Positions 8,965 through 64,000 of a stretch of DNA of 64,000 bases are shown here, piece after piece. The DNA is from a virus, in IMG/VR virus record IMGVR_UViG_3300032242_002920, positions 62,001-126,000 of that record. The stretch is one strand, 5' to 3'. Below the pieces are notes generated by a model. That model did not search any database. It was given only the letters and a program-made list of their open reading frames with translations, and was not told the origin of the DNA. Both the position numbers and the translations under genes were made by a program. How positions within the stretch are numbered: the first letter of the stretch is position 1; each line of letters opens with the position of its first letter.

Positions 8965-9437
8965 TATCTGTAATAGCTCGCGCCATTCTTCTTACGCTGA
9001 TCGGGACTGTTAACTTTTCGACCTTCTGGATGAGTTCGATTATAAATGCCAGCAACAATAGATGGGTCGGGGGTACCCAAAGAGTTATAAATCTCTCTAC
9101 GCCTTCTTTGATAAAGGTGTTCTTCAAAAAGAATTGGCGCATCCCCTTTAATGCCTTTTACTTTGCCTTCGCCCTTAAACCACGTATGATTGTTTTTGCA
9201 CTTGTATTCAGGAAAATCAATAATTAACTCGTTTCCCTCTTCGTCCTGTACGGTTTGATGCGCAGTTTTAGAATTACCTGTCACAATTCCTTCGCATTCA
9301 CATTCTCTGCAAATTTCTCTTTTAGCATCTTCTCTTAAAAAGTCGTCGGCTAATTGTCCTAGTTGGGTATTAGTATACTTTCTACCCTCTTCATATTCAA
9401 GGCCCTCTTCGTAATTATTCCATCTATTATGCCACAT
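8964..9437 (-). CDS. Zinc-ribbon-like protein of unknown function
   Basis: 157 aa, mostly charged. Cysteines at CRECEC (residues ~42-47) and CKNNHTW (~79-85) could bind one zinc ion. The C-terminal 40 residues, beginning LGTPDPS, are basic. No family was recognised. It sits in the minus-strand replication block between the sigma-like HTH gene (10-bp overlap at its start) and the HTH gene downstream, so a nucleic-acid-related role is guessed from context only. Confidence 0.65.
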   Translation of the reverse strand: MWHNRWNNYEEGLEYEEGRKYTNTQLGQLADDFLREDAKREICRECECEGIVTGNSKTAHQTVQDEEGNELIIDFPEYKCKNNHTWFKGEGKVKGIKGDAPILFEEHLYQRRRREIYNSLGTPDPSIVAGIYNRTHPEGRKVNSPDQRKKNGASYYR

Positions 9438-9810
9438 TGTTTTCTACCTGCTCTTCTGCAAAATATTTGTCAGTTAATTGCATCATTGCTTGCTCAACAT
9501 ATTGACCAACTGAAACCGTGGTAATACCCATAATTTCAGCAACTTCTTTTTGTTTTTTGTCAAGAATAACATTGTAGTAAACGGCCTCTCTCTTTCTTGC
9601 TGAAAGAGTTTCAAGACCATCGTGCAAATCCCATAAAGAGATGCTGAGAGTGTGCTTTGTTCTACTGCCATCTTCATTCTTAGTCCAGTAAGAATGCTCT
9701 ATAACGTGCGTTCCTTCTCTGGTAAAAATTTGTTTAAATTCATAGTAATGCCTATACACTTCTCTTAGAATTCTATGCTTTGGAATTGGTTCACTTAGTT
9801 CTTTTTTCAA
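9427..9810 (-). CDS. Sigma-70 region 4-like HTH protein
   Basis: 127 aa beginning at TTG 9810, the only plausible start; the gene overlaps the ruvC stop by 20 bp. The C-terminal half, LSARKREAVYYNVILDKKQK followed by EVAEIMGITTVSVGQYVEQAM, matches the spacing of a sigma factor region 4 or related HTH: an 'SARKREA' helix, then a DNA-recognition helix. No region 2 is present, so it is not a full sigma factor. It may act as a phage transcription regulator or DNA-binding accessory factor. Confidence 0.7.
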   Translation of the reverse strand: MKKELSEPIPKHRILREVYRHYYEFKQIFTREGTHVIEHSYWTKNEDGSRTKHTLSISLWDLHDGLETLSARKREAVYYNVILDKKQKEVAEIMGITTVSVGQYVEQAMMQLTDKYFAEEQVENNVA

Positions 9811-20435: not shown

Positions 20436-21039
20436 CTAGTACCTCTCCTAAGACGACCTTTAAACGATTTTCAGTAATTTCCAACATATTATCACCATCT
20501 ACAAATAAATTTGTAACAGGGTAAAGCTTAAAAGCGTTAAAAGCGGCTTGGAGATTTTTCTCTAAGTCCTTTACTCTCAGATCTTCAATTTCTCCTACTG
20601 GAGGAAGATAAAAAATATAATCATACCTAAGTGTGTCCGCATAGAGACAAGCAAGCATTCTTGTGACCGCTTCGGTTTTTAATACAAGGTCGTGCTTGCC
20701 TGCATCGTCATCGCTAGTCAAAAGTTGGTATGAACCCTCAAGGCTTTGAGCGGTATACGATGAGGTTTCAAATAACGTACCGCATGAAATAACAGTTTTA
20801 TGATCCTGATATGCGATTCGTTCTGCTGACTCTCTCTTAAGAGCAACGTGCATGTTACCAATATAAGTTCCCGAAAATGAAAGGGCTAAATCAACTTCAT
20901 CTCGAAGTTCATCAATATAATTATCGACCACTGCAACTGGAAGGTGACTTTCGTCATCAACAGCCTCTAGAGCCTTTTTTAAAGATTCTGCCAAGGCAGA
21001 TTTACCCGAACCCGGTACACCTACTAAACCAATTCTCAT
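20413..21039 (-). CDS. P-loop NTPase/kinase-like protein
   Basis: 208 aa. A clean Walker A, GLVGVPGSGKSALA, lies at residues ~4-17. The rest resembles small nucleoside- or nucleotide-kinase-like P-loop proteins (KTVISCGTLFETSS, RYDYIFYLPPV), but no lid motif is evident. It overlaps the MerR-like stop (ATGA) and the loader GTG. Role in nucleotide metabolism or as a replication ATPase is undecided. Confidence 0.7.
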   Translation of the reverse strand: MRIGLVGVPGSGKSALAESLKKALEAVDDESHLPVAVVDNYIDELRDEVDLALSFSGTYIGNMHVALKRESAERIAYQDHKTVISCGTLFETSSYTAQSLEGSYQLLTSDDDAGKHDLVLKTEAVTRMLACLYADTLRYDYIFYLPPVGEIEDLRVKDLEKNLQAAFNAFKLYPVTNLFVDGDNMLEITENRLKVVLGEVLGADNTQE

Positions 21040-21296
21040 TTCATATTCTCTCTTTCGATCATTTGAAGCATAGTAACAGATGCTTCAATATATTGCAAGC
21101 GTTGATTTGAAATTCGTTTCAAATCTTTTGCCCTACGAGCAATTTCTCTAATATCAGACGTAGAAAATTTTCTATCGCCACTTCCATCTCTAGGAAATGT
21201 AAAAAGACCTTTGCGCTCCCAACCTCTAAGGGTAACAGAAGATTTGCCCAAAAATCGAGCAAGATCGGTCACGGTAAAAGAAAACCCGCCCGACAT
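21036..21296 (-). CDS. MerR-like HTH regulator
   Basis: 86 aa. The N-terminus, VTDLARFLGKSSVTLRGWER followed by KGLFTFPRDGSGDRKFSTSD, is the winged HTH of MerR/excisionase-type proteins; a helical tail follows. No effector domain or metal-binding Cys is present. It starts one base from the upstream stop, within the replication block, so it could regulate this operon or assist DNA architecture. Confidence 0.78.
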   Translation of the reverse strand: MSGGFSFTVTDLARFLGKSSVTLRGWERKGLFTFPRDGSGDRKFSTSDIREIARRAKDLKRISNQRLQYIEASVTMLQMIERENMK

Positions 21297-22148: not shown

Positions 22149-22177
22149 ACAATACCACATATCAATTGTTTTTGCAA
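22149..22177 (-). promoter_or_regulatory. Promoter of the replication block, leaderless
   Basis: Read on the minus strand: -35 TTGCAA (22177-22172), 17 bp, -10 TATTGT (22154-22149) with an upstream TGG (extended -10). Seven bases separate the -10 from the A of ATG 22141, so the mRNA would start at or next to the start codon. It is divergent to the nrdJ promoter, whose -35 begins 14 bp to the right. Confidence 0.6.
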
Positions 22178-22435: not shown

Positions 22436-22468
22436 AAATACTACCTATAACAAAACAAAAGGAAAGTT

Positions 22469-24555: not shown

Positions 24556-24583
24556 CTTTTCAACGAATACTTCATCATAATAT

Positions 24584-25406: not shown

Positions 25407-28123
25407 TGACCATTAATTCTAGAAAAATTCCATTAGGTTTTGCGGGATCTAATTTTCGTCCTTGGGAATATAAAGTTGCTGGGTTTCGTATGCTTGCCAA
25501 TGAATACGGTAGGGCTAGTTCTACAACTAGCACTACTTTAGTTGATACGTCCAAATCTTGGGCCGTAGACGCATATAAAGATAAATATGTTGTTGTAGGT
25601 AGTTCTGTTGGTCCTCAAACCGTTAAAATTGTTAGCAATACAAGTAATACTTTAACAGTTGCAAGTTGGCCAGTTGCGTTGCCAACAAGCGCAATTATGT
25701 CTGATGGTAGTAAACTTATATATGAAATACAAAATGGTGCAAAAATTATGGCAACGGCGACATCTTCAACCGGAACTAGCGTTACGGTTAGTCCTATTGC
25801 TCCTAATACCTCTTTAAATTTAATTTCTGGAAAATCTTATACCGTTGTTGGACAAGGTATACCAGTTTATTATACTGGTTCTTCAGTCACCCCGCCAGTC
25901 ATATTAAATTCAAAAGGTCAAAGTATGACTCATTCTGCATCAACGGTTTCTTTAATTAAATACACCCCTACAACATCCAACCCTTCTACCATTACTTTAC
26001 CAATCGCTCCTTTGACGCCTTTAAATGGTATTGTTCTTTATTTTTTTGAAAATGAACTTAGCATTGAATGTCAACTAATGTTAATGGCTAATTCGGGAGT
26101 AGAATCATTTAGAACGCCATTATTTTGGAAAGATATTGAACCAAATGCTCCAATTGGAGAAACTAGAAGTTATAAATTTTCTCCGGCAAATGACGGCGTT
26201 GATTATGATATTTTTTATTCAATGTCAGCGAGTTTGGGAATGAACGCAATGATTCGCCTTGGTAACCCTCCAGACCATGAAATAGATTATCCGTATAGTA
26301 AAAATTATTTTGGTCCAGTTTCATTAGATGTAACGGGATATGGCGGACAATTTATCACAGTAAAAACTGCAATAGACGGTTCATATGATCATAATTTAAA
26401 CAATTCTTATGCCGTTTTTAAAAACATGTTTGTAACTGGAACAAATGTGCCAGCAAATACGTATACAACACCTTTAACTGAAAATCAAGTAACGCTAGGA
26501 ACAACAACTTACAATATCGTCGTTAACAAAAATACTCCGGAAACTTCGGTTAGAACCGGCGTTGCATCGGATGGATCAACTGCATACATTATTAAATTAA
26601 ATAATAATGTTCCTTCTGGAGATGTAACAATTTCTGCAACTATCAAAGTGGATGGAAATTTAGTTACAAGTCCGTTTCCATATTACAATACTGATTCGTC
26701 AAACCCAATTAATTTTAGTTCAGAAAACGATCTTAGAGCTTTTTGTTTACAAATGGGAAGAAAAGGCGGAACCGTACCAAAAAACTTTAAAAATTTTGGC
26801 GATTTTATGAATGTATTAATTAATCGTTATGGCGCAAACGGAACAATTTGGCAATCAGAAAACAATTTATGGTCAAGACCAATTCAAAAAACTTTGTCTG
26901 ATGCCCACTCTGGTTCATTAACATCCGGCAGTTTTAAATTAATTTCTAACATTGCGGATTGCAAAGGATTTGTTGTTGGTGCGACAATAGAATCATCCGC
27001 AAGCGGATCAATTCCAGCTACCTCAACAAACGGCAATGCAGCTTTTCTTTCTCCTAAAACTAAAATTTTGTCAATTGCTAAAGACACTAGTTACACAACA
27101 CAAAATGCAATTTATTTAAGTAAATTTACTAATACTGCATCAGCCTCAAATCAATCAATTACTATTAAATATCCACCAATTCAAAATTGGCAAATTTACA
27201 ACGAGGTTCCCTCAGATGGTGCTGATGGAACTTTTTATTGGAGAATAAACTCTGGAACAATTCATTCAAGTAATATTTTAATTGGCGTCAACTGGCCTCA
27301 GTATAGAACAACTGCAAGTGTTGTCAATTCGTCAAATAATACAAGTTCAGTTTACACAACTAATATGGAAAATGGTTGGGGTCCAAGTTTTTCATCCTTG
27401 CTTAGCACTGCAAAAGCTGAAGCTCATTCAACCGACCCCAATGCAAGTATTGTTACCTCAGGCATCAACTCTGAACCGAGTTCTTCAAACACCGCATCGT
27501 TGTTTACTAAGAAAAACGCAAAAAATAGTTTTGATAAAATTGCATTTCATCTTTATGGACCTTATACAACTTCGGCTGGAGCAGTTAATTCCGGACCTTA
27601 CACAGTAACCGGTCAAGAAACACAAAGAATTATAACTTTACTTGAAAAAAATTACGGTAAAAATACGCCATCATATAATATAACACCTGATGTAATTATT
27701 AGCGAATACGGATGGAGTACCGCGCCTAAAACTGCTGGATCGGTACCCGCTGGCGGAAATGGATATTCATATAATGTTCACGATCAATTTATTGCTAACG
27801 CCACGCCAAATTCCCTTGGGTATATTACTACCATGTTTGATAAAAATTGGCATACAATAAATCATAAAATTTATACCGCTCGAAAAATGATGTCAGAAAA
27901 TACAAATTTGATAAATTTTGAATCAGTTATGTATTTTAAATGGGCAAGTGATGAAGGAAGAGAAATTAATGATTCTCCATTTTTAGATAACTGGAGGGGT
28001 CCAAATTTTTACATGTCTCCGTCAACTAATTCAAGTGTACCGGGATCAACTATTCAATTTTATATGAAACCTGCGGCTAAATCATTACAAGATGCGGCGT
28101 TGACACTTCAAGGTAGAATCTGA
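25406..28123 (+). CDS. Large glycosidase-like tail or lysis-associated protein (905 aa)
   Basis: A beta-rich N-terminal region (residues ~40-130, TLVDTSKSWAVDAY module) leads into a clan GH-A-like catalytic region. QNWQIYNEVPS at ~595 supplies the acid/base Asn-Glu pair and VIISEYGWSTA at ~762-772 the nucleophile Glu, the pattern of GH5/GH39-type retaining glycosidases. FDKIAFHLYGPY and AMIRLGNPPDHE fit the same barrel. No signal peptide. It probably degrades a host-surface glycan, either as virion depolymerase or as lysis enzyme; its place next to holin-like and membrane genes leaves both open. Confidence 0.7.
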   Translation: MTINSRKIPLGFAGSNFRPWEYKVAGFRMLANEYGRASSTTSTTLVDTSKSWAVDAYKDKYVVVGSSVGPQTVKIVSNTSNTLTVASWPVALPTSAIMSDGSKLIYEIQNGAKIMATATSSTGTSVTVSPIAPNTSLNLISGKSYTVVGQGIPVYYTGSSVTPPVILNSKGQSMTHSASTVSLIKYTPTTSNPSTITLPIAPLTPLNGIVLYFFENELSIECQLMLMANSGVESFRTPLFWKDIEPNAPIGETRSYKFSPANDGVDYDIFYSMSASLGMNAMIRLGNPPDHEIDYPYSKNYFGPVSLDVTGYGGQFITVKTAIDGSYDHNLNNSYAVFKNMFVTGTNVPANTYTTPLTENQVTLGTTTYNIVVNKNTPETSVRTGVASDGSTAYIIKLNNNVPSGDVTISATIKVDGNLVTSPFPYYNTDSSNPINFSSENDLRAFCLQMGRKGGTVPKNFKNFGDFMNVLINRYGANGTIWQSENNLWSRPIQKTLSDAHSGSLTSGSFKLISNIADCKGFVVGATIESSASGSIPATSTNGNAAFLSPKTKILSIAKDTSYTTQNAIYLSKFTNTASASNQSITIKYPPIQNWQIYNEVPSDGADGTFYWRINSGTIHSSNILIGVNWPQYRTTASVVNSSNNTSSVYTTNMENGWGPSFSSLLSTAKAEAHSTDPNASIVTSGINSEPSSSNTASLFTKKNAKNSFDKIAFHLYGPYTTSAGAVNSGPYTVTGQETQRIITLLEKNYGKNTPSYNITPDVIISEYGWSTAPKTAGSVPAGGNGYSYNVHDQFIANATPNSLGYITTMFDKNWHTINHKIYTARKMMSENTNLINFESVMYFKWASDEGREINDSPFLDNWRGPNFYMSPSTNSSVPGSTIQFYMKPAAKSLQDAALTLQGRI

Positions 28124-28129
28124 TATAAT
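28100..28129 (+). promoter_or_regulatory. Promoter of tRNA-Pro/Val, inside gene 3' end
   Basis: Perfect -35 TTGACA (28100-28105), 18 bp, perfect -10 TATAAT (28124-28129) with TGA before it. The hexamers lie in and just after the glycosidase gene end; transcription would begin about where tRNA-Pro starts. Confidence 0.85.
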
Positions 28130-28136
28130 AATATAA

Positions 28137-28210
28137 CGGGATGTAGCGCAGTCTGGTAGCGCATTCGCTTTGGGAGCGAAGGGTCGTAGGTTCAAATCCT
28201 ACCATCCCGA
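28137..28210 (+). tRNA. tRNA-Pro(UGG)
   Basis: Acceptor CGGGATG/CATCCCG, anticodon stem TTCGC/GCGAA with loop TTTGGGA (anticodon TGG), T arm GTAGG-TTCAAAT-CCTAC. No CCA encoded. Confidence 0.95.
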
Positions 28211-28215
28211 TCATA

Positions 28216-28287
28216 GGGCGATTGGCGCAGCGGGAGCGCAACTCGTTTACACCGAGTAGGTCATTGGTTCGAATCCAATATCGCCCA
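28216..28287 (+). tRNA. tRNA-Val(UAC)
   Basis: Acceptor GGGCGAT/ATCGCCC, D arm GCGC, anticodon stem ACTCG/CGAGT with loop TTTACAC (anticodon TAC), T arm ATTGG-TTCGAAT-CCAAT. Five bases after tRNA-Pro. Confidence 0.95.
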
Positions 28288-28292
28288 TTTGA

Positions 28293-28334
28293 TTTACACC
28301 GAGAGGGTCGCAAGTTCGAATCTTGCATCGCCCA
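28293..28334 (+). pseudogene. tRNA-Val(UAC) 3' half
   Basis: From the anticodon loop (TTTACACCGAG) through a well-paired T arm (GCAAG-TTCGAAT-CTTGC) to the acceptor 3' strand ATCGCCCA, but no 5' half. The T stem differs from the complete tRNA-Val by compensatory changes, so it derives from a different tRNA-Val gene. It may be a remnant of recombination or an attP-type core; see findings. Its end also carries a promoter -35. Confidence 0.75.
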
Positions 28335-28351
28335 TAATAATCTGCTACAAT
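28323..28351 (+). promoter_or_regulatory. Promoter overlapping the tRNA-Val half, leaderless
   Basis: -35 TTGCAT (28323-28328) in the tRNA remnant, 17 bp, -10 TACAAT (28346-28351) with TGC before it. The expected +1 coincides with the A of ATG 28358. Confidence 0.68.
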
Positions 28352-28357
28352 GCAGGT

Positions 28358-28525
28358 ATGCACTTTGACATTTTAAATTATGTTACACACCTTGGGTTTG
28401 AAGGTCTTGCTGCTATAGGCGGTTATTACGCTCGCGGCTTTTGCAAGCATACTTGGCACAGGGTCACTGTTGCAGTAGTTTGGTCAATTGTTTCGACTTT
28501 CCTACTAGTATCAGTTGTAGGATGA
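28358..28525 (+). CDS. Small membrane protein (55 aa)
   Basis: Starts MHFDILNYVTHLGFEG. A Gly/aromatic-rich N-terminal segment is followed by HTWHRVTVAVVWSIVSTFLL, a transmembrane span. No ribosome-binding site precedes the ATG, but a promoter places the transcript start on it, so it is read as a leaderless gene. Function unknown; position among tRNAs and lysis genes suggests a lysis or envelope accessory. Confidence 0.6.
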   Translation: MHFDILNYVTHLGFEGLAAIGGYYARGFCKHTWHRVTVAVVWSIVSTFLLVSVVG

Positions 28526-28530
28526 TATTT

Positions 28531-28612
28531 ACCCGAATGGCGGAATAGGTAGACGCGTTGGATTTAGGATCCAATGCCGCAAGGCGTGGGGGTTCGATTC
28601 CCTCTTCGGGTA
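28531..28612 (+). tRNA. tRNA-Leu(UAG)
   Basis: Acceptor ACCCGAA/TTCGGGT, anticodon stem TTGGA/TCCAA with loop TTTAGGA (TAG), long variable arm TGCCGCAAGGCGT, T arm GGGGG-TTCGATT-CCCTC. Confidence 0.93.
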
Positions 28613-28736
28613 TTAGGTTGCCCATCAATGTAATAACACATGTTGGTGAAACCGCCTAATCCATAGATGAAAAGGTGAAATTAATTTATGGATAATGATT
28701 CACTCATAGGCAAGCGGGTAAGCCTTGGCAACCCTT
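28613..28736 (+). other. tRNA-free spacer with inverted repeats
   Basis: 124 bp without tRNA or convincing gene. TTAGG (28613-28617) can pair with CCTAA near 28655, and CATCAA with TTGGTG inside it. ATCCATA (28659-28665) is an exact inverted repeat of TATGGAT (28687-28693), which spans an ATG. The short frame from 28688 runs into tRNA-Asn and is not accepted as a gene. Confidence 0.35.
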
Positions 28737-28808
28737 TGGCGCGTAGCTCAACGGCAGAGCTTTCGACTGTTAATCGAATGGTTGTAGGTTCGAATCCTAC
28801 CGCGCCAG
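28737..28808 (+). tRNA. tRNA-Asn(GUU)
   Basis: Acceptor TGGCGCG/CGCGCCA, anticodon stem TTCGA/TCGAA with loop CTGTTAA (GTT), T arm GTAGG-TTCGAAT-CCTAC, discriminator G. Confidence 0.95.
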
Positions 28809-28811
28809 TTT

Positions 28812-28900
28812 GGAAAGATGGCAGAGTGGTTGAATGCGTCGGTCTTGAAAACCGAAGTAGGGCGCGAGTTCTACCGAGGGTTCGAATCCCTCTCTTTCCT
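28812..28900 (+). tRNA. tRNA-Ser(UGA)
   Basis: Acceptor GGAAAGA/TCTTTCC, anticodon stem TCGGT/ACCGA with loop CTTGAAA (TGA), long variable arm AGTAGGGCGCGAGTTCTACC, T arm GAGGG-TTCGAAT-CCCTC. Three bases after tRNA-Asn. Confidence 0.94.
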
Positions 28901-28903
28901 TAT

Positions 28904-28975
28904 GCCGCCATCGTCTAATGGTCAGGACATGGGTTTTTCACACCTAAAACCGGGGTTCGACTCCCCGTGGCGGTA
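28904..28975 (+). tRNA. tRNA-Glu(UUC)
   Basis: Acceptor GCCGCCA/TGGCGGT, anticodon loop TTTTCAC (TTC), T arm CGGGG-TTCGACT-CCCCG. Confidence 0.92.
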
Positions 28976-28976
28976 C

Positions 28977-29005
28977 TTGCAGTAAACAAAAATCTATGCT
29001 ATAAT
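28977..29005 (+). promoter_or_regulatory. Promoter of the initiator-like tRNA
   Basis: -35 TTGCAG (28977-28982), 17 bp, perfect -10 TATAAT (29000-29005) with TGC in front. It starts transcription ~4 nt before the tRNA. Confidence 0.82.
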
Positions 29006-29015
29006 AGATACACAT

Positions 29016-29087
29016 CGCGGGGTGGAGCAGTGGTAGCTCGCTAGGTTCATATCCTAGAGGTCGAAGGTTCGATTCCTTCTCCCGCTA
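29016..29087 (+). tRNA. Initiator-like tRNA-Met(CAU)
   Basis: The 5' half CGCGGGGTGGAGCAG and GGTAGCTCG are those of bacterial initiator tRNA-fMet. Position 1-72 is an unpaired C:U, the hallmark mismatch needed for formylation, and the anticodon loop is TTCATAT (CAT). The anticodon stem CTAGG/CCTAG keeps two of the three G:C pairs of host initiators. T arm GAAGG-TTCGATT-CCTTC. Confidence 0.88.
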
Positions 29088-29089
29088 CT

Positions 29090-29161
29090 ATCTCAGGTCG
29101 TCAGGTTGCCCCGCCTGAGATGAACGCCCCGGATGAGCCTCTGATTCAAGCTCGCCGGGGC
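29090..29161 (+). ncRNA. Two-hairpin RNA between tRNAs
   Basis: Hairpin 1: ATCTCAGG (29090-29097) with CCTGAGAT (29114-29121). Hairpin 2: GCCCCGG (29126-29132) with CCGGGGC (29155-29161), enclosing GAGC/GCTC (29135-29153). TATGTATTTTCT follows, so the second may terminate the fMet transcript. No coding sequence. Confidence 0.5.
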
Positions 29162-29181
29162 TATGTATTTTCTAAAAATTG

Positions 29182-29190
29182 TGCTATACT
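29182..29190 (+). promoter_or_regulatory. Extended -10 before tRNA-Leu(UAA)
   Basis: TGC TATACT (29182-29190), +1 near 29197, tRNA from 29200. No good -35 at 17 bp, so moderate confidence. Confidence 0.45.
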
Positions 29191-29199
29191 TGCAATCAT

Positions 29200-29283
29200 G
29201 CTCGGATGGTGGAATTGGCATACACGGCTGACTTAAAATCAGCTTCCCGGTTGGGATTGCGGGTTCGAGTCCCGCTCCGAGTA
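29200..29283 (+). tRNA. tRNA-Leu(UAA)
   Basis: Acceptor GCTCGGA/TCCGAGT, anticodon stem GCTGA/TCAGC with loop CTTAAAA (TAA), long variable arm, T arm GCGGG-TTCGAGT-CCCGC. Confidence 0.94.
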
Positions 29284-29319
29284 CTTTAGAATATTCATAG
29301 ATCAATCGCATAATAAGTG

Positions 29320-30693
29320 ATGAGTGCTAATGGACAACTGGCGGCGAGCGAACTAGCTCCAATTACAGGCGGAGGTCATCTTCGTAAAGATGCCGCTCTT
29401 GCTTGGAATGGTTTTGCAAAATATTGCCTTGCCGTTCATGGCGCTCATGTTGCTGTTAATGATTCTTATCGCGTTCTTGGTCATCCGGGAGATTATGCTA
29501 GGGGAATTTGGAGCCAATGGGCCGCGTGGGAAAGATACAAAGCGGGTGGCAACTTATCCGCTGTTCCGGGATCTAGCAACCACGGCTGGGGATTGGCAGT
29601 AGACGTGCCACCAGCAACTCAGGATCTTATTCATAAATATGGAGATGGATTTGGGTTCAATAAAGCTAAATCCGACGCTCCAACAGAAAATTGGCATTTT
29701 CGTTGGGATGGGTATATTCGTCCCGACCTTAAACTTCGTTGGTGTTCTTCATCAACTGGCGCGCCCGTACTACACCCCGGATATAGAGGTCCAGCGGCTA
29801 TCACTCTTAAGAAGAGGCTTCGTGCTTGGGGTTATTTCCCTCTTGCAATGAGGATTGATAATAATTATGCTGGTAAAATCGTTCCAATGGTTCAGAGTTT
29901 TCAGTCCCATCATGGACTTGCTCCTGATGGTGTTGTTGGCCCAACTACTTGGCATGAACTTAATAAGGTCCCACCTCCCGGACCCAAGCCAATTGTAAAA
30001 CCCAAGCCCAAACCCCCTGTTCCTGCACCCAAACCTAAGCCGGTTCCGGTGACTCCCCCTAAACCTAAACCAGTACCAAAAAGCAAGTATTTTGCTGATG
30101 TTTATGAAGGTGATCAGTTTAATGCTTCTCAGTATAAGGCTGGCAATTATCCTTTGATTGTTCTTAAGGCATCAGAGGGAGCAACTTACAAAGATCAAGC
30201 TTTTAATGCCAGATTTCGTGATGCTGGGCATATTGGACTTACTAGGTTTATTTATCATTTTGCTCGCCCCGGAAATGGAAATACCCCAATTGCGGAAGCG
30301 CAAAATTTTGTTGCTGCTATTAATGGTGCTGGCAAACTCAATCCTGATGATCGCCTTGTTCTTGATTGGGAAGATCCTAAGTTTGAAAATAAAAATGGCG
30401 ACAAATGGATTGCAGATTTTTGTCACGAAGTTGGCAAACTTGGTCATACCGTTCGTGTACTTTATAGCGGTGGTTGGTATCTCCCCGGCACAGTAACTAA
30501 ATGGCCCGTTGATCATACTGGTAAGGCTCTCAAGTATTGGCATAGCGCTTATACCGCCGACCCATCATCTAATGTACCACCTATGGCTAAACCAAATCTT
30601 TGGGCTTGTCAATATACCGATGGTACCGTAGGCACACTTGAGCCTAAGCAGGCTCGGGGAATTGGACATTGTGACATGTCCTTCCTAGTTTGA
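29320..30693 (+). CDS. Modular endolysin: VanY-like peptidase, PG-binding, GH25 lysozyme
   Basis: 457 aa from ATG 29320 (GTG 29317 also possible). Residues ~10-135 are a D-Ala-D-Ala carboxypeptidase/VanY-type domain (SNHGWGLAVDV, ENWHFRWDG). Residues ~150-215 are a peptidoglycan-binding repeat (PDGVVGPTTWHELN), then a Pro/Lys-rich linker. Residues ~252-457 are a GH25 muramidase (ADVYEGDQF, KASEGATYKD, YHFARPG, RLVLDWEDPK, CQYTDG). It cuts both the peptide and glycan parts of peptidoglycan for release. No signal peptide, so it needs a holin, consistent with holin-like genes on both sides. Confidence 0.93.
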   Translation: MSANGQLAASELAPITGGGHLRKDAALAWNGFAKYCLAVHGAHVAVNDSYRVLGHPGDYARGIWSQWAAWERYKAGGNLSAVPGSSNHGWGLAVDVPPATQDLIHKYGDGFGFNKAKSDAPTENWHFRWDGYIRPDLKLRWCSSSTGAPVLHPGYRGPAAITLKKRLRAWGYFPLAMRIDNNYAGKIVPMVQSFQSHHGLAPDGVVGPTTWHELNKVPPPGPKPIVKPKPKPPVPAPKPKPVPVTPPKPKPVPKSKYFADVYEGDQFNASQYKAGNYPLIVLKASEGATYKDQAFNARFRDAGHIGLTRFIYHFARPGNGNTPIAEAQNFVAAINGAGKLNPDDRLVLDWEDPKFENKNGDKWIADFCHEVGKLGHTVRVLYSGGWYLPGTVTKWPVDHTGKALKYWHSAYTADPSSNVPPMAKPNLWACQYTDGTVGTLEPKQARGIGHCDMSFLV

Positions 30694-30699
30694 TATAAT
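30671..30699 (+). promoter_or_regulatory. Promoter of tRNA-Thr, inside endolysin 3' end
   Basis: -35 GTGACA (30671-30676), 17 bp, perfect -10 TATAAT (30694-30699) with TGA before it. +1 near 30706; tRNA from 30708. Confidence 0.8.
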
Positions 30700-30707
30700 A
30701 TAGTTGC

Positions 30708-30781
30708 GCCGAAGTAGCTCAGTTGGCCAGAGCGCCTCACTTGTAATGAGGATGCCGGGGGTTCGAATCCCTCCTTCGGCT
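30708..30781 (+). tRNA. tRNA-Thr(UGU)
   Basis: Acceptor GCCGAAG/CTTCGGC, anticodon stem CCTCA/TGAGG with loop CTTGTAA (TGT), T arm GGGGG-TTCGAAT-CCCTC. Confidence 0.95.
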
Positions 30782-30825
30782 CTTATAATCTTATCTCCTG
30801 ACATTAATTATTGAAAGGAGGTTTC

Positions 30826-31143
30826 ATGGACCCACAGAAAATTATTTCGGCTGTTCAAGGACTTATTGCGTCTATTACCGCTGGCCTCGTTTCATTTGGT
30901 ATTCTCGGTGGTGCGCAAGCATCTGCAATTCAAGCTTTTATTGTCTCTGCAATTGCTTTTGTTTCTGCTATTGGTATTCATTCCGTTCGTTCTGCAACTT
31001 TAAGTGCGGAAGATGCTGCCACTTATGATCCTACTGCTGTTCCGCCAGCAAATTTAATTGTTGACCCATCTGCCGATGCATCCGCAGTTACTCCCGATGC
31101 ATCAACAATTGATGGACCTACCTATAACTCTGAAGGAGTGTGA
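30826..31143 (+). CDS. Holin-like membrane protein with acidic tail
   Basis: 105 aa from ATG 30826 after AAAGGAGG. The first 55 residues are homologous to the small protein at 24251 (GLVSFGILGG-Q-SAIQ, hydrophobic runs on both sides). It then adds an Asp/Pro/Ala-rich tail (VDPSADASAVTPDAST) absent from the other. It lies right after the endolysin. The pair could be holin and antiholin. Confidence 0.65.
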   Translation: MDPQKIISAVQGLIASITAGLVSFGILGGAQASAIQAFIVSAIAFVSAIGIHSVRSATLSAEDAATYDPTAVPPANLIVDPSADASAVTPDASTIDGPTYNSEGV

Positions 31144-31158
31144 TCCTTATCTAGCGGG

Positions 31159-31186
31159 TCCCGGCTTGAAATACAGCCGGGATTTT
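31159..31186 (+). terminator. Rho-independent terminator after holin-like gene
   Basis: Stem TCCCGGCT/AGCCGGGA (31159-31166 with 31175-31182), 8-base loop, then TTTT. The loop edge begins the TTGAAA -35 of the next promoter. Confidence 0.82.
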
Positions 31187-31194
31187 GCTATGAT
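31166..31194 (+). promoter_or_regulatory. Promoter overlapping terminator, before tRNA-Lys
   Basis: -35 TTGAAA (31166-31171) in the terminator loop, 17 bp, -10 TATGAT (31189-31194) with TGC before it. +1 near 31201, tRNA-Lys from 31205. Confidence 0.7.
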
Positions 31195-31204
31195 GTTTCT
31201 ACTT

Positions 31205-31277
31205 GCCCTTGTAACTCAATTGGTAGAGTAGGAGACTTTTAATCTCAAGGTTGTAGGTTCGAGTCCTACCGGGGGCA
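31205..31277 (+). tRNA. tRNA-Lys(UUU)
   Basis: Acceptor GCCCTTG/CGGGGGC with two G:U pairs, anticodon loop CTTTTAA (TTT). Anticodon stem GGAGA/TCTCA has one G:A mismatch. T arm GTAGG-TTCGAGT-CCTAC. Confidence 0.88.
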
Positions 31278-31279
31278 TT

Positions 31280-31573
31280 ATGAATAAATATATTACGGGA
31301 ACAAAACAAAAAGTTATAAATGTTCATAAGGAAAACGCAGATTGCCGCAAGTATGGTTGTTGCGTTCATAGTCCTTCTGATCATAATATGAAAAATTGGC
31401 CTACTCATTGGCGCGACGATCACGGTATGATGGAGAGAATTTGCGAGCATGGTGTTGGTCATCCCGATCCAGATCACATTGGTTGGGTATCTCGTAATGT
31501 TGGTTCTAGGGCTGCTAAGATTGTATCTATACATGGCTGCGACGGTTGTTGCAGAAAGGAAAATAATGAATAA
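31280..31573 (+). CDS. Cys/His-rich small protein
   Basis: 97 aa, start ATG 31280 only 2 bases after tRNA-Lys, with no ribosome-binding site, so translation may depend on tRNA processing of the transcript. Contains CRKYGCCVHSPSDH, WPTHWRDDHGMMERICEHG and CDGCCRKE; clustered Cys and His suggest metal binding. No family recognised. The downstream gene overlaps its 3' end. Confidence 0.6.
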   Translation: MNKYITGTKQKVINVHKENADCRKYGCCVHSPSDHNMKNWPTHWRDDHGMMERICEHGVGHPDPDHIGWVSRNVGSRAAKIVSIHGCDGCCRKENNE

Positions 31574-31886
31574 GAATAAGAAGTTTTGGAAGAAACAAGC
31601 TAAAGCTTGGCGAGAGATTGCCGAAATAGAAACTGAATCTGCTAACGATTGGTCGGCAAAGTATTATTACCTTAATATGGAATACGAAGATCTTGACGCC
31701 AAGTACGTAGACCTTATTAGTAAATATGAAACTGCAAGGCGCGAGCTTAATACTCTTCGTCAATATAATATTGGAAGAAAAACTAATGCGTCAAATACTA
31801 CCGGAACTTCTGGTAGTGGCTATTCGTACAATACCACTTTTGATTTTACAAAACCTAAGAAGAAAAAGCGTTGGCGTCGAAGTTAG
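31566..31886 (+). CDS. Coiled-coil small protein
   Basis: 106 aa from ATG 31566 after GAAAGGAAAATA. The first 65 residues are helical and charged (KQAKAWREIAEIETESANDW, YEDLDAKYVDLISKYETARR), then a Thr/Ser-rich segment and a basic end (KPKKKKRWRRS) that could bind nucleic acid. Unknown function; sits between tRNA-Lys and tRNA-Gln. Confidence 0.6.
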   Translation: MNKNKKFWKKQAKAWREIAEIETESANDWSAKYYYLNMEYEDLDAKYVDLISKYETARRELNTLRQYNIGRKTNASNTTGTSGSGYSYNTTFDFTKPKKKKRWRRS

Positions 31887-31894
31887 TAATTTAT

Positions 31895-31965
31895 TGGGGG
31901 ATCGTCTAAAGGCAGGACAACGGTCTTTGGAACCGTGAATCTAGGTTCGAATCCTAGTCCCCCAG
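31895..31965 (+). tRNA. tRNA-Gln(UUG)
   Basis: Acceptor TGGGGGA/TCCCCCA, anticodon stem ACGGT/ACCGT with loop CTTTGGA (TTG), T arm CTAGG-TTCGAAT-CCTAG. Confidence 0.95.
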
Positions 31966-32054
31966 TTTATAAAATTCTTAACAATTATAACTGAATAGAT
32001 CGCAACATAATGATTAGAAGACAAGTTAATTTTCAACATAAGGAGGCACAAGTT

Positions 32055-32276
32055 ATGTCAACGACAGAAACTGACAAGGATACTCTTGCCGATCATCGTG
32101 TTTCCACTTTTGAAGAGCTTGGATTTTCAAAAGAAGATTCAGAAAAACTTGCATTAACAAAAAATATTGATATAATCAATGGTAAGCAATATAGCTTTCC
32201 TCTCTCTTGGCACAAAGTCAAGAAAATGCTAGATAATGGTTGTAGTCATGAGCTAGCTCTTAAAATACTATTATAA
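32055..32276 (+). CDS. Hypothetical protein (73 aa)
   Basis: From ATG 32055 (MSTTETDKDT) after AAGGAGG, spaced slightly long; an ATG-like longer frame at 32010 is not needed. Soluble, no motif recognised. It directly precedes the cysteine peptidase gene (8-base gap) and is probably co-transcribed and co-regulated with it. Confidence 0.6.
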   Translation: MSTTETDKDTLADHRVSTFEELGFSKEDSEKLALTKNIDIINGKQYSFPLSWHKVKKMLDNGCSHELALKILL

Positions 32277-32284
32277 GGACAAAT

Positions 32285-33052
32285 ATGACAGAAGAAACAC
32301 ATTTTACTCCAAAGCTTGGCAAGGCACAGGCTCGCCCCGATGCCGTAAAGTTAAAGTTCAGTAACTACATTAATACTACGCAACTTCCTACGCCACCTGT
32401 TTCTTTTGGTCATGAAGCCCTGATTAGTTCTTGGGGTATGCTTGGCAATGATCGCTACGGTGATTGTGTTTGGGCTGGTGCAGCACACGAAACGGCAATG
32501 TGGAATAAGGAAGCTAATCATGTTGTTAACTTTACTGATCAGGCCGTTCTTTCGGACTACTCTGCTGTAACAGGATTTAATCCTAATGATCCTAGCACCG
32601 ACCAAGGAACCGATATGCAAAAGGCCGCTTCTTATCGAAAGAAGTCTGGCATTAGGGATGCAACTGGCAAGCGTCATCAGGTCGCGGCTTACTTGTCCAT
32701 CACTCCCGGCAACGTTCAAGAGCACCTTCTTGCTATGTATCTTTTTGGTGCAGTTGGTATTGGTATCACATTCCCAGATAGTGCAATGAGGCAATTTCAT
32801 TACTCGCAGCCTTGGGACATTGTTCCCGGAGCACAAATTCAAGGTGGTCATTATATTCCCCTTGTCGCTCGTCGTAACAATATGCTTGTGTGTGTTACAT
32901 GGGGTCGCACTCAGCCAATGACTGATGCATTCTTTAGTAAGTACAATGATGAGTCGATTGTTTATATTTCTAATGAAATGCTTGTAAATGGTAAATCTCC
33001 TGAAGGATTTAATGCACAGCAACTTCAGGCCGATCTCGCACAGCTTCACTAA
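32285..33052 (+). CDS. Papain-like cysteine peptidase
   Basis: 255 aa. GNDRYGDCVWAGAAHETAMW (~58-77) carries the catalytic Cys; GGHYIPLVARRNNMLVCVTW (~187-206) the His followed by Trp, the order seen in papain-fold peptidases. No signal peptide or binding domain. It could be an additional lysin acting on cell-wall peptides or a virion-associated protease; the position beyond the endolysin and before the fibre genes fits either. Confidence 0.72.
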   Translation: MTEETHFTPKLGKAQARPDAVKLKFSNYINTTQLPTPPVSFGHEALISSWGMLGNDRYGDCVWAGAAHETAMWNKEANHVVNFTDQAVLSDYSAVTGFNPNDPSTDQGTDMQKAASYRKKSGIRDATGKRHQVAAYLSITPGNVQEHLLAMYLFGAVGIGITFPDSAMRQFHYSQPWDIVPGAQIQGGHYIPLVARRNNMLVCVTWGRTQPMTDAFFSKYNDESIVYISNEMLVNGKSPEGFNAQQLQADLAQLH

Positions 33053-33060
33053 GCAGTTCA

Positions 33061-33131
33061 GCATCTGTGGTGTAGTGGTAACATCAGAGCCTTCCAAGCT
33101 CTTGTCGCGGGTTCGAATCCCGCCAGATGCT
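33061..33131 (+). tRNA. tRNA-Gly(UCC)
   Basis: Acceptor GCATCTG/CAGATGC, anticodon stem AGAGC/GCTCT with loop CTTCCAA (TCC), T arm GCGGG-TTCGAAT-CCCGC. No separate promoter seen; probably processed from the peptidase transcript. Confidence 0.95.
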
Positions 33132-33196
33132 TTCAAATCTGTCTTAATCAAGCAGATAAATTATATAGCAGACAAGTACATAGGATTTAATTTTTA

Positions 33197-60273: not shown

Positions 60274-60302
60274 TTGACAATTAGATATCAATTTGGTAGT
60301 CT
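60274..60302 (+). promoter_or_regulatory. Promoter of the DUF932 gene
   Basis: Perfect -35 TTGACA (60274-60279), 17 bp, -10 TAGTCT (60297-60302) after TGG. Starts ~35 nt before the ATG and includes the AAGGAG site. Confidence 0.6.
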
Positions 60303-60342
60303 TATAAAAGTTCGTGTTAAATCAACAGTAAGGAGAAGTAAA

Positions 60343-61332
60343 ATGTCGCATGGAATCACAGACAAGGACACAATGTTCAGCGTCCGCGAAATGCCGTGGC
60401 ATGGTCTTGGTACTGTGCTTGATGAGTACCCCGGATCAATCAAGGAAGCACTAGAGCTTTCAGGTCTTGATTGGTCTGTAGTTCAGCGCCCGGTGCATAT
60501 CCCTATGACAACTATGGTTGGCGGTCAAGAGATTGTTACTTATCCGCAGGCAAATGGTATTTGGGCAAATGTGCGCGAAGATACTAATGATGTGCTTGGT
60601 ATTGTTACTGATCGTTACAAGCCAATTCAAAACCATGAGGCATTTTCTTTCATGGACAATCTGATCGGATCGCAGTTTGATTTCGAGACAGCAGGCAGCT
60701 TGCAGGCTGGCAAGAAGGTGTGGGTACTTGCCCGTATCCCAGATCATGTTGAAGTTGGTGGCGACGAGATTGCACAATATGTGTTTGTTAGCAATACTCA
60801 CGATGGCAAGGCTTCTTGTATCGTAGCCGCCACTCCAATTCGTATTGTTTGCGCTAACACTCTTGGCTGGGCATTGGGTCAGGCCAAGCGCGGTGGACGC
60901 AGCTACACGGTGCGCCATACGGGAGATATCAGTACCAAGCTCCACGAGGCCCGTAACGTAATGAACATGACAATTAATTATTACGAACAATTCAAGCAGT
61001 TTGGAGATCAGATGGCTCTTGAAAAGATTAGCGCCAATGCTCTTGAAACCCGTGTGCTTGATAGGCTTTACCCTGTCGAAGAGGGTATGGGAGATCGCGC
61101 CGTAACTAATCGTGAAGTTGCTAAAGAGGCAATTCTTTCGATTTTTAACGGCATGGGCGTTCGCGGTGATACGACAGGTAACGCGCCGGGTACTAAGTGG
61201 TGCGCTGCCAACGCAATTGCCGAATACACTGATTACGGTCGTAAGATGACTAAGCGTGGCAATCAGGTTGCCCGGTCATTTGATGACAATGCAATCAAGC
61301 AGCGTGGTTTTGAGTTGGTTCTCGCTGCATAA
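60343..61332 (+). CDS. DUF932/phage-plasmid-like protein
   Basis: 329 aa from ATG 60343 after AAGGAGAAG. Starts MSHGITDKDTMFSVREMPWH, and the whole length (PWHGLGTVLDEYPGSIKEAL, AATPIRIVCANTLGWALGQA, RHTGDI) matches DUF932 (TIGR03299), often found on phages and plasmids, function unknown. Likely soluble. Confidence 0.85.
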   Translation: MSHGITDKDTMFSVREMPWHGLGTVLDEYPGSIKEALELSGLDWSVVQRPVHIPMTTMVGGQEIVTYPQANGIWANVREDTNDVLGIVTDRYKPIQNHEAFSFMDNLIGSQFDFETAGSLQAGKKVWVLARIPDHVEVGGDEIAQYVFVSNTHDGKASCIVAATPIRIVCANTLGWALGQAKRGGRSYTVRHTGDISTKLHEARNVMNMTINYYEQFKQFGDQMALEKISANALETRVLDRLYPVEEGMGDRAVTNREVAKEAILSIFNGMGVRGDTTGNAPGTKWCAANAIAEYTDYGRKMTKRGNQVARSFDDNAIKQRGFELVLAA

Positions 61333-61344: not shown

Positions 61345-61423
61345 GAGGACTCCAGCTAATGACCCTCCCCATTAGCTTCGGATATAAAAGACCATACTCC
61401 CCTTCGCGGCGTCCTCCGCTTTT
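61345..61423 (+). terminator. Compound hairpin/terminator after DUF932 gene
   Basis: GAGGAC (61345-61350) pairs with GTCCTC (61411-61416); inside is GCTAATG/CATTAGC (61355-61376). Alternatively GCGG/CCGC (61406-61419) folds with TTTT following, a terminator. Mutually exclusive pairings are visible. Confidence 0.55.
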
Positions 61424-61444
61424 ACTATTCCTTTAACAATCATA

Positions 61445-61453
61445 TGCTAGGAT
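61445..61453 (+). promoter_or_regulatory. Extended -10 of leaderless gene
   Basis: TGC TAGGAT (61445-61453), with TTACTATTC 17 bp upstream (61422-61430), as at 60228. The +1 falls on the A of ATG 61460. Confidence 0.5.
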
Positions 61454-61459: not shown

Positions 61460-61867
61460 ATGAAAACAAGAACTCTGTATTGCAAAGCAGGTGAGCATGA
61501 GTGGCAGCGTCCGGCCCAGAAGGGTCGCGCACCTCTTAATTGCCCCGAACATAGTGAAGTAAAAACTAATAACAAGATGAGCGGTTTGGATAAGGCTCGT
61601 GCTGCCAAAGCAAGCAAAAAAGTTGAGGCGGAAAAAGAATGGGCCGATAGGGTTGCTGCTGTTATAAACGACCATCGTATGACCGATGGATTGTCAAGCT
61701 ATTCTTACACCGATGCTCGCCATACCACGATCACCAAACTGCAATACATTCAAAATCAATTGTCAAATAATAGAGAAAACAGAGAACCTACTGATATTTC
61801 TATGCTAGAGGATATGCGCGAGAAGATTATGCGCGATCCCTTCAACAGGTCGGGCCATCTATTCTAA
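61460..61867 (+). CDS. Hypothetical protein (135 aa)
   Basis: ATG 61460, without a Shine-Dalgarno, preceded by a promoter positioned for leaderless translation. CKAGEHEWQRPAQKG and NCPEH resemble a zinc-ribbon pair; helical middle. Unknown function. Confidence 0.6.
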   Translation: MKTRTLYCKAGEHEWQRPAQKGRAPLNCPEHSEVKTNNKMSGLDKARAAKASKKVEAEKEWADRVAAVINDHRMTDGLSSYSYTDARHTTITKLQYIQNQLSNNRENREPTDISMLEDMREKIMRDPFNRSGHLF

Positions 61868-61868: not shown

Positions 61869-61920
61869 TTTTACCTGCCCTTTACTAACGACCTGCTACG
61901 CTGTGCAGCAGCAGTTCACA
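61869..61920 (+). promoter_or_regulatory. Repeated promoter/5'UTR element, copy 1
   Basis: TTTTAC (61869-61874), CTTTAC (61880-61885), -10 TGC TACGCT (61894-61902), then GCAGCAGTT. Spacing TTTTAC to -10 start is 28 bp in all three copies. Precedes the gene at 61940. Confidence 0.65.
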
Positions 61921-61939
61921 ATCAACAAGGAGAAACAAA

Positions 61940-62173
61940 ATGAGAGCAGTATGCCCTAGCTGTGGAAGTGACGCGGTGTTCCTCAGTATGGATGTTGAGG
62001 TTTGCGCCGTATTTGATGATGGTACTATTGAGCTTATCGCCCCCGGTGAGGCTCAGGGATATGGTACGCTCGTCTGTGGCGATTGTGATATCGTTGAGGA
62101 CCGCAGTACCAACAATCGACAGGCTTGGATTCAGGCCGCAATTGATAACTACGATAAGGAGATAGCAGCATGA
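61940..62173 (+). CDS. Zinc-ribbon protein (77 aa)
   Basis: ATG 61940 after AAGGAG. CPSCGSDAVFL and VCGDCDIVED form a CxxC...CxxC ribbon. Its stop overlaps the next gene. Unknown function. Confidence 0.65.
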   Translation: MRAVCPSCGSDAVFLSMDVEVCAVFDDGTIELIAPGEAQGYGTLVCGDCDIVEDRSTNNRQAWIQAAIDNYDKEIAA

Positions 62174-62559
62174 TTACAGGTACGCTTGTAGGTCAGGTCG
62201 CAGTAGACTCAGGTCAGATTATGATTATTGATCCTTGTTATATTAATGCTGATTTTGCAAAAGAGTTTGACCCTAGCACCAAAAATCAGGAGAGTTCGTC
62301 ATACGAAATGAATTATGATGGGTGCTGTAACGCTACTCTGAGCGGCAAGGGTTACGGACAGCTTGAGAACCTTGCTATTGCTTGTGGCACCTTGTACGGT
62401 GACGGTGTGTACCCTGTATACGCAGAGTTTGATAGCCGCAATAGGGTCAAGACTCTCACGATTGACTTTGATCCACAGGAGGACGATAGCCTTTGCGATC
62501 ATTGCGGCGAGGATATGGATTGGGATTGTCGCTGTAATGATGAGGATGAAGAGATCTGA
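62170..62559 (+). CDS. Hypothetical protein with C-terminal Cys cluster
   Basis: 129 aa. Beta-rich (VAVDSGQIMIIDPCYI, GDGVYPVYAEFDS) with CDHCGEDMDWDCRC at the end, possible zinc site. Resembles small phage proteins of the DUF4241-like type; not certain. Confidence 0.58.
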   Translation: MITGTLVGQVAVDSGQIMIIDPCYINADFAKEFDPSTKNQESSSYEMNYDGCCNATLSGKGYGQLENLAIACGTLYGDGVYPVYAEFDSRNRVKTLTIDFDPQEDDSLCDHCGEDMDWDCRCNDEDEEI

Positions 62560-62571
62560 CACTTGTAATTT

Positions 62572-62596
62572 GCCGGAGGGTGTGATACCCTCCGGC
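62572..62596 (+). terminator. 10-bp hairpin after 62170 gene
   Basis: Perfect stem GCCGGAGGGT/ACCCTCCGGC, loop GTGAT, no T-run. Could be a terminator or RNA stability hairpin before the small gene at 62633. Confidence 0.5.
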
Positions 62597-62632
62597 TTAC
62601 GAGTGAAGTGTTCAAATAAATAAAGGAAATAA

Positions 62633-62812
62633 ATGACAAAAGAAGTTGATGCATACGCACTTGGATATGCTCACGCATTAGAGCGTGGTCCCAAGTCTAT
62701 GGAAAGTATTAAGCTAGTAGCGGCATTTGGTGAGAAGGATGCCAAGAAGTATCAAAAGGGCGTAGTTGCTGGCCTTAATCGAATTGTAGAAAATACGCAG
62801 GGTAACAAGTAA
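62633..62812 (+). CDS. Small basic/helical protein (59 aa)
   Basis: ATG 62633 after AAAGGAAAT. Contains DAYALGYAHALERGPKSMES, helical and charged. Followed directly by the next gene. Confidence 0.6.
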   Translation: MTKEVDAYALGYAHALERGPKSMESIKLVAAFGEKDAKKYQKGVVAGLNRIVENTQGNK

Positions 62813-63064
62813 TTGTTTGTTGATACAGAAGCGGAAGTAGTTGATATTGTTCAAGCAATTGATGTTGTGACAAGTATCGTTGGCCGAGTAGCTAAGGAAA
62901 GAAATCAATTTGCTTCGGCAATGATTGATACTGACCTTGATGCGGCGGAGGCAACGGTTCTTGAAACAGAAAAACAATTGACGGCGGCTAGAACGCTGCT
63001 TAATTTTGCGTATGATCTGCTTGGGCAGGAGCCTAGTCCCCCAGCTAACGAGTACGAAGTCTGA
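62813..63064 (+). CDS. Hypothetical protein (83 aa), TTG start
   Basis: Read from TTG 62813 immediately after the previous TAA; no ATG or GTG near the front fits. Long amphipathic helices (AAEATVLETEKQLTAARTLL). Unknown function. Confidence 0.5.
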   Translation: MFVDTEAEVVDIVQAIDVVTSIVGRVAKERNQFASAMIDTDLDAAEATVLETEKQLTAARTLLNFAYDLLGQEPSPPANEYEV

Positions 63065-63120
63065 TTTTACCTGCTCTTTACCCGGCATCTGTTAAGATGC
63101 TGGGTGCAGCAGTTACACAA
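63065..63120 (+). promoter_or_regulatory. Repeated promoter/5'UTR element, copy 2
   Basis: TTTTAC (63065-63070), CTTTAC (63076-63081), -10 TGT TAAGAT (63090-63098), GCAGCAGTT (63106-63114). Precedes 63146. Confidence 0.68.
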
Positions 63121-63145
63121 TACCAATTCCCAAAGGAGGGAAACA

Positions 63146-63376
63146 ATGCCTAAGTATAAAATTCAGGTTCCAGAGGTCCACTATCAGACCGTAGAGGTTG
63201 ATGCTCTTAACGAGGCCGATGCTGTACGAGAGGTTATGGATTACGGTGGAGAGCGCGTCGAAGGCGCACTAGAGTATTCTCATGTAATGGATGAGTATCT
63301 TGTGGAACTTTTGCGCGAGTGTGAATCAGGTGACGGAATCAATCACGATTGGATGATCTGGGAAACAAATGATTAG
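63146..63376 (+). CDS. Hypothetical protein (76 aa)
   Basis: ATG 63146 after AAAGGAGGG. YKIQVPEVHYQTVEVDALNE then ADAVREVMDYGG look like a small alpha/beta domain. Downstream of element copy 2; its 3' end overlaps the next gene. Confidence 0.62.
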   Translation: MPKYKIQVPEVHYQTVEVDALNEADAVREVMDYGGERVEGALEYSHVMDEYLVELLRECESGDGINHDWMIWETND

Positions 63377-63563
63377 TATTGATATTGATAGTGCAAAAGA
63401 GATTGTTCGTATGTTGAATAGTTATGCTGAGGAACTCAATAACGCAATTGATACTCAGGACAATAGCGACGAGATAGTTAGGTATATGGAGGGCGATATT
63501 GCTAATGCTGATATTCTTGTCGCTTACATTGAGCGCAAGCTGTCACCAACAGGCGTTCGCTGA
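63369..63563 (+). CDS. Hypothetical protein (64 aa)
   Basis: ATG 63369, overlapping the previous gene. Helical, acidic (AEELNNAIDTQDNSDEIVRY). Unknown. Confidence 0.55.
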   Translation: MISIDIDSAKEIVRMLNSYAEELNNAIDTQDNSDEIVRYMEGDIANADILVAYIERKLSPTGVR

Positions 63564-63614
63564 TTTTACTCGCCCTTTACCCGCAGTCTGGTATGATGCT
63601 TGCAGCAGTTCAAA
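63564..63614 (+). promoter_or_regulatory. Repeated promoter/5'UTR element, copy 3
   Basis: TTTTAC (63564-63569), CTTTAC (63575-63580), -10 TGG TATGAT (63589-63597), GCAGCAGTT (63602-63610). Precedes 63634. Confidence 0.68.
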
Positions 63615-63633: not shown

Positions 63634-64000
63634 ATGCATTCACTTAATCATTTTCTTATCAACCTTGATTCTGATGATTTGGCTTTTATTTATCAAAACG
63701 GCAATATCTTTGCTACAGAACATAGTCAGTTCGGTTCATATGTTGAGCGAAAGTTTGATGATAATAATTGGTACACGGCATTGACCGTGACTTACAAGGA
63801 TGGCACACCGACCGCTTTTAGTTCTGACAACTATCGCGGTGGGGTAGACGCTTGGGTTGAGGATCGTGATAGCTGGAACTTTGATGCCGCCGTTGATGCC
63901 GCATACAAGTCTTTGTATTGGGATGTCAATAACAGGATCAATATTCTTACCAACGAAGATCGTAACAATGATCGTGAGTTTCAGTCAATCGAGGATGCTG
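63634..64000 (+). CDS. Hypothetical protein, 5' part (partial)
   Basis: ATG 63634 after AAAGGAG; the frame stays open to the window end. Starts MHSLNHFLINLDSDDLAFIY and looks like a soluble mixed alpha/beta protein. Unknown function; continues beyond 64000. Confidence 0.62.
   Translation, partial: MHSLNHFLINLDSDDLAFIYQNGNIFATEHSQFGSYVERKFDDNNWYTALTVTYKDGTPTAFSSDNYRGGVDAWVEDRDSWNFDAAVDAAYKSLYWDVNNRINILTNEDRNNDREFQSIEDA

Follow-up and report, generated by a model that had tools for sequence, protein, structure and literature searches.

What reads a promoter made of two short TTTAC repeats and an extended -10, with no -35 hexamer? The question is raised by copies of such an element near the end of the DNA analysed here, a 64,000-nucleotide stretch (hereafter the window) corresponding to positions 62001-126000 of a 132,001-bp virus record. 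The portal and major head proteins of this phage (G000) match those of contractile actinophages (Mycobacterium cluster C/Bixzunavirus, Gordonia Skog, Rhodococcus Finch) with about 40-55% amino-acid identity. Therefore, the phage, whose GC content is about 41%, most likely infects an actinobacterium. A scan of IMG/VR yielded three related contigs, G001 (127 kb), G002 (136 kb) and G003 (97 kb). All element counts given below refer to these four related metagenomic contigs, in which promoters were predicted from sequence.

The element reads TTTAC-N6-TTTAC-N11-TAnnnT with an extended -10 (TGn), and is present at 61869, 63065 and 63564. A first-pass annotation of the window had described, for these three copies, a CTTTAC starting 11 bp and an extended -10 starting 28 bp after the start of TTTTAC. 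We verified these distances: the copies read TTTTAC-N5-CTTTAC-N11-TAnnnT, and the exact double motif was found at these three positions only within the window. The reported lack of a -35 was also borne out: the hexamer 17 bp upstream of the -10 (CCTGCC at 61874) is no -35, and TGn precedes each -10. In copy 1 (61869..61902, plus strand), the half-sites occupy 61870-61874 and 61881-61885 and the -10, TACGCT, occupies 61897-61902; the predicted +1 is at about 61909. Copy 2 (63065..63098, plus strand, -10 TAAGAT at 63093-63098) begins right behind the stop codon of the preceding ORF, and copy 3 (63564..63597, plus strand, -10 TATGAT at 63592-63597) also begins right behind a stop codon. A further plus-strand copy (copy 0, 61420..61453) reads TTTTAC-N5-CTTTAA-N11-TAGGAT with a TGC extended -10, and the ATG of a leaderless gene is located 6 nt past this -10. 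Because copies often start at the preceding stop codon, as at 63065 and 63564, the block reads as a succession of gene-promoter-gene cassettes.

The leaderless ORF under copy 0 (61460..61867, plus strand) encodes 135 aa from ATG 61460 and has no Pfam or PHROG match. Under copy 1 lie the plus-strand genes of a 77-aa CxxC protein (61940-62173) and of a 129-aa protein (62170-62559). Two small ORFs of 59 aa and 83 aa (62633..63064, plus strand) are found between copies 1 and 2, and the plus-strand genes of a 76-aa protein (63146-63376) and of a 64-aa protein (63369-63563) lie under copy 2. The claim that each copy drives tiny genes is not valid for the copy at 63564, under which lies a 202-aa gene (63635..64000, plus strand) running on past the window. 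An Rfam search of the block gave no match. At the edge of the block, a DUF932 protein is encoded at 60274-61332; a short stretch near its start resembles, at the DNA level, Microbacterium phages Megan and Nicole72.

The first-pass annotation had suggested searching the whole phage genome and relatives, and this search indeed revealed further copies. In the source phage, they are found past the window at contig positions 128414, 129362, 131465, 131568 and 131785, and a one-turn variant with -10 CACACT is found at contig position 126243. In this phage, the last 9 kb hold the copies, which all have the same orientation and precede small genes; the exceptions are a weak minus-strand match at 49121 and a convergent copy at the contig start. 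The same small-gene block with element sites is carried by G001, G002 and G003. The sites number about 22 in G001, 16 in G002, 13 in G003 and 9 plus the variant in the source phage, about 60 in all, of which those common to orthologous genes are not independent counts. The element was not found in the cultured relatives Finch, ET08, Skog, Phrappuccino and Settecandela, and is thus present in four of the nine phages tested; lacking the element, these relatives were rejected as the origin of a known regulon.

The convergent copy, CCTCAGSCTTTACCATAYCTTTACTAT, is highly conserved, has a degraded -10 and marks the block end at position 47 (minus strand) in G000 and, on the plus strand, at 108631 in G001, 76880 in G002 and 92908 in G003. 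It adjoins a G/C-rich hairpin, with in addition a second TTTAC pair in G001-G003. This copy may serve not as a promoter but as a terminus or terminator site.

A PWM scan of the four phages gave 57 matches, whereas nothing exceeded the threshold in a first-order Markov control, and a reversed-pattern control for the element gave 0 matches. TTTAC-N6-TTTAC pairs were found 44 times, as compared to 0-8 times for each other spacing from 0 to 30. In an unbiased search upstream of TGnTAnnnT for any 5-mer repeated identically after 11 bp, TTTAC at N11 came out on top in all four genomes. The second TTTAC unit is nearly invariant; the first permits TTTGC, TTTAA and TTAGC. Since a TTT run returns with roughly each helical turn, one may imagine that no regulator is involved and that phased T-runs form a UP-like or bent-DNA element raising basal promoter strength. 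This is very improbable, as the A and C following TTT are as conserved as the Ts (44 of 45 copies have the C in the second half-site) and would be unneeded for bending alone.

The -10, TGCTAnnnTG, is located at N11 past the pair at 41 sites. A second class of 15 sites has its -10 at N21, N22 or N23 (10, 3 and 2 sites, respectively), other offsets occurring at 0-4 sites. The G at -14 is kept in all ten N21 sites. The two -10 classes are one helical turn apart, which is what one expects if an activator contacts RNA polymerase. In ordinary copies, the -10 matches TATAAT at 3.9 of 6 bases and no -35 is present. Such weak -10s, in promoters without a -35, should give little basal activity. This argues against a repressor that would bind the repeats as operators and silence the block by covering the -35 region of extended -10 promoters which are constitutive otherwise. 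The site does overlap -40 to -24, and repression by CarH and BldC is possible from positions of this kind; however, neither the invariant -10 distance nor a second class exactly one turn off is required for repression, and we regard this explanation as improbable. The exact and helically phased spacing makes the promoter class point to an activator instead. A regulon with a dedicated activator had been put forward in the first-pass annotation. The class without -35 and its exact, phased spacing agree with this idea, whereas the phage sigma-like or MerR-like protein proposed as its reader is less supported, as detailed below.

At 8 sites, a start codon is found 6-7 nt past the -10, a peak over all other offsets. 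This peak marks leaderless mRNAs and supports the predicted +1. With most other copies, a Shine-Dalgarno sequence and an ATG follow about 25-53 nt downstream. The stretch GCAGCAGTT, formerly taken as a shared part of the element at about +1 to +10, lies at a variable 4-7 nt from the -10 in the three copies and is absent from most others. Because its register varies, it was rejected as part of the element; it is 5′ leader.

Another sequence, GGGNGGGNGGG, occurs as 12 stretches in the four genomes, all beginning just past the -10 of a block promoter, as compared to 0-2 in total in simulations. They are located at 131502 in G000, at 111507, 110173, 109674 and 109377 in G001, at 79229, 78372 and 77619 in G002, and at 96265, 95861, 94439 and 93962 in G003. 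The corresponding promoters have -10s near the consensus TATAAT and a TTTAC pair at N11 or N21-22. The stretches, which possibly represent a G-rich 5′ RNA, often lie about 60-110 bp before a second element promoter.

We propose, with a probability of roughly 55%, that the element is an activator-dependent promoter read by an OmpR/PhoB-family response regulator of the host, which would switch on the small-gene block. The two tandem half-sites (TTTACY, 11 bp apart, at -39 to -24) would form a box bound head-to-tail by the winged-helix DNA-binding domains of OmpR/PhoB-family regulators. This box would substitute for the -35, the regulator recruiting the housekeeping RNA polymerase to the weak extended -10. 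Its reader is probably a host response regulator, KdpE-like as judged by the half-site, and would presumably act early. Direct-repeat half-sites of 5-7 nt with an 11-bp period are indeed those of an OmpR/PhoB-family box, and so is a fixed, helically phased distance from box to -10 that replaces or adjoins the -35 (compare PhoP, below). In a profile search of six phage records, which a diverged domain could escape, no OmpR-type DNA-binding domain (PF00486) and hence no phage-encoded OmpR/PhoB regulator was found over cut-off. A weak PF00486 match in G001 (E=0.03), in a 101-aa Cys/His-rich protein, was treated as spurious. With no such domain found in the phages, we favour a regulator of host origin.

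When 84,980 species genomes (GTDB, 257 Gb) were scanned with the strict pattern, in search of an actinobacterial host regulon, six loci only were obtained. Two of them lie directly before Na/Pi cotransporter-PhoU genes, one precedes the Na+-pumping decarboxylase subunit OadB, and one precedes an operon encoding a DUF4118 (KdpD-type) kinase and an OmpR-family regulator (Trans_reg_C). Another is a Chloroflexi contig with two sites, one before a PKD-trypsin-like protein, and the last has no gene nearby. In 295 genomes of a single order scanned with a relaxed pattern, TG not being demanded, seven sites were obtained, five of them with TG; the genes behind them include a sodium:solute symporter (SSF) and, once more, a Na/Pi cotransporter and a DUF4118 kinase. 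Some of these seven sites may be due to chance, because a backwards-read control gave three matches in the same scan. The box is thus found, in Clostridia and Chloroflexi, upstream of plausible OmpR/PhoB-family targets. An OmpR-family reader is in keeping with look-alikes placed before a KdpDE-like system and before genes of ion and phosphate homeostasis. Six look-alikes (L060, L061, L062, L065, L099 and L100) share the full phage layout, including the TG extended -10 at N11. They differ from the phage sites in that they occur once per ion or phosphate operon, with no phage involved, and the clostridial regulator is a candidate only. The strict pattern was not found in actinobacterial genomes in the GTDB scan, so that an actinobacterial host regulon with the exact box did not emerge.

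This last result speaks for a reader encoded by the phage itself, and the first-pass annotation had named two. One is a MerR-like 86-aa protein (21036..21296, minus strand; MerR_1, E=5e-8), the other a sigma-70 region-4-like 127-aa protein (9427..9810, minus strand; Sigma70_r4_2, E=5.7e-9). Both are encoded by the replication operon, the promoter of which (22149..22177, minus strand) reads TTGCAA-N17-TATTGT, with a standard -35 at 17 bp. The layout is comparable in the other three phages (TTGMAA, 17 bp, TAnnnT), and no TTTAC pair accompanies this promoter in the four phages. A conserved 101-aa Cys/His-rich protein is the product of the first gene of the operon (22141, minus strand), which has no leader, or almost none, in each of the four phages.

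The MerR-like protein might bind the TTTAC repeats head-to-tail and activate, or repress, the block as a middle regulator, since the conventional promoter of the replication operon allows it to be made first. All four phages that bear the element have MerR_1, which did not turn up in any of the five relatives lacking the element, a co-distribution that concerns few phages, close relatives, and is confounded by descent. Within the MerR family, CarH binds tandem 11-bp direct repeats, TnnACA, overlapping the -35 as in the phage element (PMC9304148). Therefore, the box does not prove the OmpR family. The CarH motif is only partly matched: CarH operators have three or four repeats and serve a repressor with a B12 domain (PMC9304148). 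BldC also binds direct repeats, AATTXXXX(C), and was rejected as a match because their period is 9 bp, not 11. The model of the MerR-like protein (pLDDT 88.8) has a MerR-type winged helix and a 22-residue C-terminal helix. Together with the nearest structures, NmlR and CueR, it suggests a dimerisation-like helix, and such dimers normally bind inverted repeats. MerR-type (inverted-repeat) geometry was rejected because the distances do not fit, whereas both distances of the box are those seen with OmpR-family regulators. The MerR-like protein thus has the distribution on its side, but the box matches OmpR/PhoB-family boxes best, and we consider this protein an unlikely, though serious, candidate reader.

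The sigma-4-like protein, or a modified RNA polymerase, could recognise TTTAC directly as an alternative -35. The phage does encode such a protein; however, sigma-4 domains (Sigma70_r4_2) are found in all nine phages tested, five of which lack the element. Being family-wide, they are probably not specific to it. Moreover, two equal half-sites with an 11-bp period, lying 22 nt and 11 nt from the -10, do not agree with any sigma -35 geometry, and such a geometry was rejected on these distances. We judge direct recognition of this kind, by the sigma-like reader suggested earlier, highly unlikely. Neither PDB profile search nor tblastn in cultured phages returned anything for the sigma-like protein.

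Two other features of this part of the window deserve mention. The gene of a class II (B12-type) ribonucleotide reductase has a leader of about 280 nt (22190-22468, plus strand) with conserved blocks in the four phages, including GGGAGGCGGTG and CAACAGGGGTTAT, and a consensus fold with 7 covarying pairs. It had no Rfam match up to E=1 and is possibly an undescribed structured RNA or riboswitch. Thirteen tRNA genes lie at 24474-33132, most of them in a tight array.

Coming back to the proposed host response regulator, a broader picture may be sketched with some hesitation. In it, these phages would form a lytic-type actinophage group in which a small-gene, probably host-takeover, block is placed under a host KdpE/PhoP-type regulator, with up to about 20 promoters per genome, infection being gated by host ion or phosphate stress sensing. 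According to this proposal, the virus would leave it to a host sensor to switch on its small-gene block. The motif with its two helical positions and leaderless starts provides a bioinformatic handle on a dark-matter small-gene block in uncultivated actinophages.

Among phage systems, T4 middle promoters (MotA box at -30) and lambda CII sites (TTGC-N6-TTGC) resemble the element in that the -35 is missing and the box of an activator keeps a constant distance to the -10. They differ by a single box or a 10-bp period and by phage-encoded activators. The CII family (PF05269) is absent from G000-G003, and CII-type activation was rejected on this basis.

A closer likeness is offered by Salmonella PhoP promoters of architectures I and III, where a hexamer direct repeat with a 5-nt gap, a TTTA core and direct orientation, (T/G)GTTTA-N5-(T/G)GTTTA, replaces or bypasses the -35 (PMC3335776). 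These boxes lie 12 (11) or 21-23 nt from the -10 and are functional at 12, 23 and 33 nt (PMC3335776); in the phage element, the last A of TTTA is 12 nt from the -10. The half-sites differ, (T/G)GTTTA as compared to (Y)TTTAC, and PhoP governs a chromosomal virulence and Mg2+ regulon, not a phage. The KdpE binding site, TTTATA-N5-TTTACA (PMC3264566), and the Clostridia and Chloroflexi look-alikes have TTTAyA-N5-TTTACA direct repeats in common with the phage. Actinobacterial GlnR and MtrA boxes (GTnAC-n6-GTnAC or similar) and PhoP boxes also have an 11-bp period, with 5+6+5 or 7+4 direct repeats, an nTnAC half-site and, for GlnR, a better conserved second repeat. In contrast to the phage box, their first base is G, not T, and conservation is looser.

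Finally, host response regulators acting on phage genes are already known for a few cyanophage genes. Host PhoB acts on cyanophage promoters through pho boxes, so that phage promoters are under a host OmpR/PhoB-family regulator, as proposed here (PMC10976474). In cyanophages, a few metabolic and replication genes are concerned, whereas here the sites of the four phages extend over a whole small-gene block. If the proposal is true, such a block with its clean repeated box leads one to ask how far phages tie takeover to host stress sensing.
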